Positions 3,856-59,963 of a stretch of 64,000 nucleotides of DNA are shown piece after piece; within the stretch, counting starts at the first letter, position 1, and each line of letters starts with the position of its first letter. Position numbers and translations under genes: made by a program. The stretch is taken from positions 1,192,588 to 1,256,587 of the forward strand of contig NZ_OBEJ01000001.1 of NCBI RefSeq assembly GCF_900215575.1, read 5' to 3'. The notes beneath the pieces are model-generated. The model was not told the origin of the DNA. It saw nothing but the letters and a program-made list of their open reading frames with translations, and did not search any database. This DNA is from Natronoarchaeum philippinense (GTDB taxonomy: Archaea; Halobacteriota; Halobacteria; Halobacteriales; Natronoarchaeaceae).

Positions 3856-5526
3856 ATGAGCGAGGACCACCTCACCGCGGACGTGCTCGTCGTCGGCTCC
3901 GGCATCGCCGGCTGTGCGGCCGCGCTCGCCGCCGCGCGCGAGGTAAGCGAGGGCCGACGGCCCTCGGAAAAGCGAGCGGCCGACGGCCGCGAGCACGCCG
4001 ACGTACTCGTCGTGACCAAAGCCGAACGCCCCGAGGACGCCAGCACCGACTGGGCCCAAGGTGGCATCGCCACGACGCGGAACGACGCCGAGCAGTTCAA
4101 GCGGGACGTGATCGACGCCAGCGCCGGCACCGCCGATCCGGACGCCGTCGACGTGCTCGTCGAGGACGCCGACACGGCCGTCGAGGACGTGCTGCTCGAC
4201 ACGCTCGATGTCGGCTTCGATACGAGCGACGACGCTAACGGGGTAGCCGACGAGACCGGTGAGACTGGCGAGGAGTTCGATTACGCTCGTGAAGCCGCCC
4301 ACTCCGCCGAGCGGATCCTCCACGTCGACGCCTCGACGGGGACCCACATCCTCCGGCCGTTCCTCCAGTATCTCGACGACCACGAGCGCGTGACGATTCT
4401 CGAGGACACGGCCGCGCTCGACCTTCTCACCCACGAGGGGCGCGTCCACGGCGCTCAACTCGACCGGACGCCGTCGGGCGAGCGCGCACCGACGGGCTAT
4501 CCCGTGTTCGCGGGCGCGACGGTGCTTGCGACCGGCGGCATCGGCTCGCTGTATCCGCGGTCGACGAATCCGGCGGGTTCGACCGGCGACGGCGTCGCCA
4601 TGGCCGCGCTGGCCGGCGCCGACGTGGAGGACATGGAGTACGTCCAGTTCCATCCGACCGCGTTCGATCCGGACGCCGACGCCGAGCGCGGCGACGCCGC
4701 CGACGGGGACGCCGACGGCGAGACGACGTTCCTGCTCAGCGAGGCGGTCCGCGGCGAGGGCGCCCTGCTCAGAAACGCCGAAGGCGAGCGGTTCATGCCC
4801 GAGTACCACGAGGACGCCGAACTCGCACCTAGGGACGTTGTCGCCCGCGCGGTCGACCGGGAGCGCGAAGCGACCGGCGAGGTCGTGCTAGACGTCGAGC
4901 CGGTCGACTTCGAACGCGAATTTCCCGACCTCGCCGCGGAGTGCGAGGCCCGCGGCGTCGACTGGACCGAGGGCATCCCCGTCGCGCCCTGCGAGCATTT
5001 CCTCTGTGGCGGCGTCGCCGTCGACGACCGCGGCCGAACGAGTCTGGATCGACTGTTCGCGGTCGGCGAGTGCGCGCGCACCGGCGTCCACGGCGCCAAC
5101 CGACTGGCCAGCACCAGCCTGCTCGAAGGGTTGGTCTGGGGGCTCCGGGCCGGCGAAGCGTCGGTCGGCGCCGAACCCGAGCCGATCGAAGCGCCGGACC
5201 TGCTCGACAGCGATCCCGCGCTCCCCGACCGGTTCGCCGCCGAGAAGTTCACGCGCCTGCGCCGGGTGATGGACGAGCGCGTCGGCCTCCGCCGCGATTC
5301 GGACGGACTCCGACGCGCGGCCGCCGTGCTCCGGCGACTCAAGGGCGAGGTCGACGCGTACGTCCGGACCCGTACCGCCAGAGATCTCTACGAGCTTCGC
5401 AACGCCAGCGTCACCGCCCTGCTGATCGCCCGGGCCGCCGCCGAGAACCCCGAATCGGTCGGCTGTCACTACCTCGACGACGCCGACGCGCCGGAAGCCA
5501 CCACACGGGCGGGTGCGGGCGACTGA
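3856..5526 (+). CDS. nadB: L-aspartate oxidase
   Basis: 556 residues. FAD flavoprotein oxidising L-aspartate to iminoaspartate, the NadA substrate. Features: dinucleotide-binding GSGIAGCAAALAA near residues 13-25, STDWAQGGIA, ATGGIGSLYPRSTNPAGSTGDG, DMEYVQFHPT, FLCGGVAVDDRGRTS, and the FAD-closing GVHGANRLASTSLLEG. The C-terminal helical domain is complete. Unusual: about 18 extra residues (EVSEGRRPSEKRAADGRE, residues about 29-46) sit between the first Rossmann helix and the second strand, encoded by two GC-rich hairpins described separately. It ends 1 base before the nadC ATG. Confidence 0.96.
   Translation: MSEDHLTADVLVVGSGIAGCAAALAAAREVSEGRRPSEKRAADGREHADVLVVTKAERPEDASTDWAQGGIATTRNDAEQFKRDVIDASAGTADPDAVDVLVEDADTAVEDVLLDTLDVGFDTSDDANGVADETGETGEEFDYAREAAHSAERILHVDASTGTHILRPFLQYLDDHERVTILEDTAALDLLTHEGRVHGAQLDRTPSGERAPTGYPVFAGATVLATGGIGSLYPRSTNPAGSTGDGVAMAALAGADVEDMEYVQFHPTAFDPDADAERGDAADGDADGETTFLLSEAVRGEGALLRNAEGERFMPEYHEDAELAPRDVVARAVDREREATGEVVLDVEPVDFEREFPDLAAECEARGVDWTEGIPVAPCEHFLCGGVAVDDRGRTSLDRLFAVGECARTGVHGANRLASTSLLEGLVWGLRAGEASVGAEPEPIEAPDLLDSDPALPDRFAAEKFTRLRRVMDERVGLRRDSDGLRRAAAVLRRLKGEVDAYVRTRTARDLYELRNASVTALLIARAAAENPESVGCHYLDDADAPEATTRAGAGD
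3948..3990. repeat. Two palindromic hairpins inserted in frame in nadB
   Basis: Hairpin 1 (3948-3966) is CGAGGGCC-GAC-GGCCCTCG; hairpin 2 (3976-3990) is GCGGCC-GAC-GGCCGC. Both have the same GAC loop, and they are separated by 9 bases. They encode most of the extra residues interrupting the NadB Rossmann fold. The shared loop and perfect stems suggest a short palindromic element rather than ordinary coding drift. Confidence 0.6.
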
Positions 5527-59514: not shown

Positions 59515-59963
59515 GGTGAATTACCTCGTGTTTCGGTGCGTTCTGCGGGTCGTGAGAGCAGTCGTGAGCCATCCACCGTAACGTAGGTCGCGCCATCGCC
59601 GGAGGCGGCGGCGGCGTCGGTTTCCCGATCGCCGGCCGATCGGCCGGCAAGCGCAGGTTCCTCCTGCGCGGTCGCCGTCTGCCCTGCCTCCAGTTCTGAC
59701 GCGATCCCCGGGCCCTTCTCGGCCCCGGCGGCTTCATCTGTGGCGTGCGCGTCGGCACGCGTCTCGAGCACGAACTCGAACGTCGATCCCTGCTTTGGCA
59801 CCTGTCGCACCCGGGACGCACCGCTGTCTACGTGGAGGGTGTGAGCCGTCTCGACGACGACTCGTCCCTCGATCCCGACGAGATCGGGGTTCGAAGCCTC
59901 GACGACCTGCACGTGCAAGCCGTTGAGCTCGTGTCGCGGTAGCGTCTCGGGTGTCAGTGGCAT
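59499..59963 (-). CDS. rnp1: Ribonuclease P protein component 1 (Rpp29/Pop4)
   Basis: 154 residues from ATG 59963 ([48 protein letters not shown]). Archaeal RNase P subunit. The Rpp29 core is split by an Ala/Gly/Glu-rich insert (about residues 70-125); the closing strand [20 protein letters not shown] completes the fold. The insert is encoded by DNA holding adjacent hairpins, listed separately. Rnp1 between rpl29 and rps17 is the usual archaeal context. Confidence 0.93.
59631..59669. repeat. Two adjacent perfect hairpins in the rnp1 insert
   Basis: 59631-59648 is the 18-base palindrome GCCGGCCGATCGGCCGGC; 59651-59669 is GCGCAGG-TTCCT-CCTGCGC. A shorter stem, GGGCC-CTTCTC-GGCCC, follows at 59710-59725. 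All lie in the low-complexity insert of rnp1, not in its conserved core. Confidence 0.55.

Follow-up and report, generated by a model that had tools for sequence, protein, structure and literature searches.

The insert in nadB of the 64-kb window (that is, of the entire 64,000-nt stretch of DNA analysed) very probably represents one copy from a haloarchaeal family of palindromic mobile elements, non-autonomous and protein-coding, with a length of approximately 51 nt (range 48–57 nt). The mobility of this element would follow from comparative genomics. A small palindromic mobile element that stays open in frame was also the proposal of the sequence-only reading of this DNA, and it is upheld by dispersed copies, empty sites in orthologues, lengths that are multiples of three, a single orientation and nearly a single frame, and covariation of the stems. 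The two outcomes set against that proposal at the time, namely a NadB segment shared by vertical descent and the lack of any second DNA copy, are both contradicted by the results below.

The nadB insert and filled or empty sites

The host gene, nadB (L-aspartate oxidase), occupies positions 3856–5526 on the forward strand, where the ORF list and Pfam define an ORF that is open throughout and encodes 556 aa, with matches to FAD_binding_2 and Succ_DH_flav_C. Alignment to the empty site of a same-genus orthologue, as well as alignment of NadB proteins, places an in-frame insert of 51 nt (17 codons, in codon phase) at 3943–3993 on the same strand, the gap alignment also permitting 3944–3994. The insert corresponds to residues V30–E46 and to a net difference of 51 nt from the same-genus orthologue, whose NadB is 88% identical. 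Approximately 18 extra residues had been claimed for NadB from the sequence; the extra segment is real, but it comprises 17 residues, as the 18-residue string took in one flanking Glu.

With respect to its anatomy, the insert contains hairpin 1 (3948–3966, forward strand; CGAGGGCC-GAC-GGCCCTCG), a linker (3967–3975, forward strand; GAAAAGCGA) and hairpin 2 (3976–3990, forward strand; GCGGCC-GAC-GGCCGC). The hairpins are assigned from the sequence together with covariation of stem 1 across 72 copies and of stem 2, and the linker, for which the family consensus is CTCGGA-N(2–5)-CGAGCGG, from an alignment of copies and an exact-pattern scan. Both hairpins are perfect and each has a GAC loop, in agreement with the initial description. 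Directly 5′ of the insert lies GCGCGAG (3936–3942, forward strand), which is also present in the empty site and matches the left end of the element, GCGAG. Within the window, hairpin 1 is a single copy besides its own reverse-strand match (chance expectation 0.02). Folding of the insert region as single-stranded DNA gave z = −2.35, and an Rfam search of this region returned no match above the gathering score.

In the protein, the insert follows the first Rossmann helix and precedes the next strand. The AlphaFold model of NadB (mean pLDDT 76) has values below 50 for residues 30–42, which sit between a helix (17–27) and a strand (50–53), and this prediction is consistent with the insert forming a disordered loop. 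When NadB orthologues were aligned, as had been suggested earlier, a gap was found at this position in all 25 other rows, the 88% identical same-genus orthologue included. Since the other relatives are empty too, gain of the insertion is the simpler reading for nadB.

Filled and empty sites were compared between the genome of the window (G000) and a same-genus genome (G001), with nine copies paired via their flanks and those in nadB and an RNase P p29-type gene via orthologues and synteny. All 11 copies compared were absent from the other species. The p29-type gene has its empty site in the window (59822–59828, reverse strand), and its same-genus orthologue, which matches Pfam RNase_P-MRP_p29, carries another copy. 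Net lengths could be measured between anchors for 10 of the 11 (51 nt in six cases, 57 nt in two, and 48 and 54 nt in one each), the surroundings of the copy at C5:3363 having diverged too far for a measurement and the copy at C1:181016 aligning poorly near the junction; all ten are multiples of three. A constant target-site duplication was not seen in the filled/empty pairs inspected. Outgroups indicate gain over loss only for nadB and, in part, for the glycyl-tRNA synthetase gene (GlyRS).

In GlyRS, the element occupies the identical site in genomes of three families (f4, f7 and f17) that have empty relatives. On a tree of the DNA flanking the site, the pattern of presence and absence needs six changes, at least four of which are forced by supported branches. 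Shuffled labels required 7.3 changes on average, and because 69 of 500 shuffles were as low as the observed value, presence is hardly clustered on this tree, whose rows are not a random sample, as filled rows were partly picked for being filled. The element is 93–98% identical between Haloarcula-type rows and f17 or f7 (L141) genomes, compared with 75–79% for the flanks, and in two Natrialba rows it is only 83–91% identical to the others, close to the values for their flanks. These observations favour a shared subtype that was gained or transferred more than once; local recombination or loss is a less favoured account of them.

These same data bear on whether the insertions could be old, vertically inherited and frequently lost with precision, possibly aided by recombination between species. 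Sites in GlyRS, TrpA, SerB-like, NadC and PIN-type genes are indeed filled in several genera or families, as such a history would have it. Nonetheless, we regard this explanation as improbable given that the nadB site lacks the insert in 25 of 26 rows, that filled and empty GlyRS genes intermix in Haloarcula-type genomes, and that between families the DNA of the element is more alike than the DNA around it.

Dispersal, host genes and reading frame

The genome of the window would not on its own reveal a family, because there a BLAST-like search with a 60-mer yielded mostly chance GC-rich matches and a simple linker pattern gave 13 matches as compared with 14 for its reversed control. Across the order, 22 of 293 genomes contain DNA similar to a 60-nt query (E ≤ 1e-4). 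A covariance model built from eleven copies (R1) had matches in at least 253 of the 293 genomes at E ≤ 0.001, in 8 of the 9 genomes of the family at E ≤ 0.01, and at no fewer than 41 places at E ≤ 0.01 in one genome, G008; the copy counts are lower bounds, as limited first-look candidates were scored per genome, and some of the weaker matches, from about E = 1e-3 upwards, are false positives. Three R1 matches (G001 C1:116833, G001 C3:33320 and G000 C7:46204) were rejected by eye as false positives of this kind. The search for further DNA copies proposed with the initial reading has in this way located related DNA at many other places.

The linker pattern GCCTCGGA-N(2–5)-CGAGCGG has 470 matches in 195 genomes, as counted from a hand-copied table, and the consensus of the aligned copies runs AGCGAGG...GCGAGC. 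It might be asked whether GC-rich coding sequence forms such palindromes by itself, by chance or by local templated mutation, and the GC-richness of the genome and the many weak matches to the query are in keeping with that idea. We give it almost no credence: unrelated genes share a single linker and anatomy, the reversed pattern has only about 20 matches against 470 (controls counted by eye), and the copies appear as discrete 48–57 nt indels relative to orthologues.

A strict pattern scanned over 84,980 species detected 103 stretches. Among the 80 listed, all are archaeal, 77 having haloarchaeal names, two coming from the uncultured archaeon A07HN63 and one being labelled only Euryarchaeota. 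Two exact patterns had no match in viral contigs, and a PDB search with the peptide consensus likewise had none.

Pfam matches identify a broad range of host proteins: NadB, NadC, an enoyl-CoA hydratase-type protein, GlyRS (anticodon-binding and class II core domains), AhpC/TSA, a HAD phosphatase, TrpA, a KsgA-type methylase, an Elp3-type protein, an FAD oxidoreductase, RNase P p29, a pyridine-nucleotide disulphide oxidoreductase, an ABC transporter, a metallo-beta-lactamase with rhodanese, an OGG/HhH-GPD glycosylase, MoeA, an AsnC-type regulator, a PhaC-type hydrolase and an FAD-linked oxidase. The domain match spans the insert in several of these hosts and lies beside it in others, such as the PhaC-type protein.

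In terms of orientation, G008 holds about 27 clear genic copies, called by script and by eye in frames with clear codon-position GC bias, and all are sense and in frame 0; about seven more are intergenic-looking. For the 80 listed strict-form copies, automatic assignment gave 63 in sense frame 0, two in another sense frame (L292 and L306), five antisense and ten without a frame. On reading, many of the antisense or unassigned copies are in fact sense copies, and two apparent exceptions to frame 0 remain. The five antisense assignments were set aside as mostly narrow-margin effects of GC-rich antisense frames; reread in sense, the copies concerned look like insertions in trpA (L278 and L284), in GlyRS (L304), in an amidase-like gene (L280) and in one gene without a name (L299). 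The peptide read in frame 0 resembles SEAQRASDxASGDEPRA or SEGRRPSEKRAADGRE and lengthens the host protein by 16–19 residues. Similar peptides encoded elsewhere bear out the earlier impression of SEGRRPSE-like strings in other halophile proteins.

Several individual loci depart from the simple form. A 118-bp stretch that is 99% identical between two contigs of one genome (G081:C294 and G081:C2; L086 and L087) contains the double hairpin and may be a larger repeat that carries it. Longer, similar and intergenic-looking repeats at G001:C7:617147-617216 and G001:C4:39711-39780 (L162 and L163), with a GCGGTTCGGAACGAAGTGAGAACCGC stem and a GCGAACGGCGAAGCCGTGAGC hairpin near TGCAAAGGGC, are possibly a related larger repeat class. 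The genome of the window itself has a copy with a different first stem, GCGGTTCGGAGCGAAGCGAGAACCGC (G000:C1:181016-181069; L166), which looks as if hairpin modules can be exchanged. Several hairpins of the element type stand in a row near a contig end at G001:C2:135398-135460 (L159), an arrangement that suggests tandem accumulation. In the trpA-like copy L284, the insert seems to hold additional repeat-like sequence (ARRERSEGLDEANGEAVSG), which gives the impression of one insertion nested within another.

DNA foldback, insertion point and candidate movers

Over 72 copies, 96.6% of stem cells are paired, and two-sided stem changes number 77, compared with 14.6 ± 3.2 in shuffles and with few when the partners were slid. 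Such compensation frequently replaces residues in the peptide. Among 71 strict-form copies in genes, the loop codon shows all four letters at its second position and A at the wobble position in 65, A having a frequency of 6.4% in flanking codons. Moreover, translation runs through stem 2 in either of two frames, yielding KRAADGRE or ASGDEPRA. Judged from these sequences, the DNA foldback, and not the encoded peptide, is what is conserved. Some of the covariation in the stems may stem from the spread of a few subfamilies and not from many independent compensations.

A conserved functional peptide, for instance a hydrophilic surface tag that is adaptive in high salt and has spread for its usefulness to proteins, might account for the fact that nearly all genic copies are in the one frame that gives a hydrophilic peptide, and for the many copies in housekeeping genes. 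This account is very improbable, as the stems covary in DNA despite residue change, the wobble base of the loop codon is nearly fixed while its second position varies, and stem 2 is used in two frames; similar hairpins are also found outside genes.

Regarding the insertion point, the insert begins directly after a pre-existing GCGAG in nadB, in a gene that we take to be GatD-like, in an OGG-like gene and in Haloarcula-type GlyRS, and it does so in the ABC gene as well if its gap is shifted. In four genes of the window, 1.7% of codon boundaries coincide with the end of a GCGAG, and the resulting P for five of eleven is 6e-7, a value for a motif picked after looking, with one ambiguous placement and with GlyRS as a twelfth event. 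A target preference for GCGAG is at this stage suggestive only.

We envision that copies would spread through a process acting on folded DNA, probably single-stranded hairpins, with joining often beside a GCGAG that was already in place and matches the left end of the element. Selection would then remove insertions that break the frame and those read in less hydrophilic frames, such that the survivors would be tolerated, probably disordered loops in essential proteins.

The element could be a miniature of the REP/RAYT or IS200/IS605 (Y1) type, related to the PATEs of Haloquadratum and served by TnpA in trans, a proposal that concerns the mover rather than mobility. Short hairpins, the lack of a consistent target duplication and a possible short target motif do resemble this class; Y1_Tnp matches are present in G000 and G001; and PATEs are known in a haloarchaeon (PMC3119063). 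We nevertheless consider the proposal unlikely. G008, with its 41 or more model matches and 89% completeness, has no match to PF01797 (Y1_Tnp), and no element copy flanks the two Y1 loci of G000 and G001 by one simple pattern. A word search of the paper on GTAG/CGTC REPs (PMC3733652) also found no haloarchaea. The only Y1 transposase match in the genome of the window (G000:C3:105054-105413; L371) has one in-frame TGA. On these observations, a Y1 transposase is not the evident mover of the element.

A more far-reaching proposition is that coding palindromes of about 51 nt are currently active and horizontally shared throughout the order, prefer GCGAG, depend on their hairpins without a Y1 transposase and keep adding disordered loops to essential archaeal proteins; we would judge the chances of this being correct to be even.

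Comparison with known systems

Most knowledge of coding palindromic elements comes from Rickettsia and Wolbachia, intracellular bacteria in which activity is hard to test. The present family is very short, differs between sister species and resides in widely conserved genes; it is present in most of the genomes sampled from an order that has culturable members. It makes element movement, the gain of protein loops by insertion and the upkeep of hairpins inside coding sequence testable. For annotation and phylogeny, inserts of 16–19 residues should not be taken as lineage-specific protein features. Searches of the open-access literature returned Rickettsia elements, PARCELs, REPs and Haloquadratum PATEs, but no description of a haloarchaeal in-frame palindromic family and nothing on the encoded-peptide strings; an earlier account may exist in subscription papers.

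Several known classes share individual features with the element. A classical MITE has terminal inverted repeats and a target-site duplication, whereas no constant duplication was seen with the element in the filled/empty pairs inspected. PARCELs are tandem palindromes coding for amphipathic repeats and were absent from Archaea in the PARCEL study, whereas the element occurs mostly as single dispersed archaeal copies. Like REP/BIME sequences and REPINs with their RAYT transposases, it is a short multicopy hairpin. However, REP super-families are marked by GTAG or CGTC tags and lie mostly between genes (PMC3733652), and the consensus of the element is without such an end tag, its copies having been seen mostly within genes and not beside the Y1 genes found. 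The PATEs of Haloquadratum walsbyi and other transposase-free mobile repeats bear palindromes and make no target duplication (PMC3119063). PATEs share these properties and a haloarchaeal host with the element, and would differ by their near-terminal palindromes related to IS605-type ends; in the passages of PMC3119063 consulted, in-frame spread through housekeeping genes is not described.

Coding palindromes offer further parallels. As cited in PMC2996958, protein-coding palindromic repeats are reported in Wolbachia and in Methanocaldococcus jannaschii, so that coding palindromes in host proteins, in one case archaeal, are shared with those repeats. The strict form described here is set apart by its range, being archaeal and nearly always from named haloarchaea among the matches listed from 84,980 species, the known repeats being judged by description. 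Rickettsia palindromic elements are dispersed, occurring both between genes and, as in-frame insertions, within numerous conserved genes that are unrelated to one another (PMC2229807, PMC10969869); they measure 105–146 bp and have terminal inverted repeats (PMC2229807). The earlier comparison in idea with these elements is well founded, as both are foldable palindromic DNA (here two hairpins with the high pairing noted above) inserted in frame in unrelated conserved protein genes. The data do not support placing it within the Rickettsia families themselves: the haloarchaeal element, with its two adjacent hairpins in 48–57 nt, is a third the size and is set apart by description, and its hosts are archaea, not Rickettsia, among the 80 of 103 strict-form matches listed.
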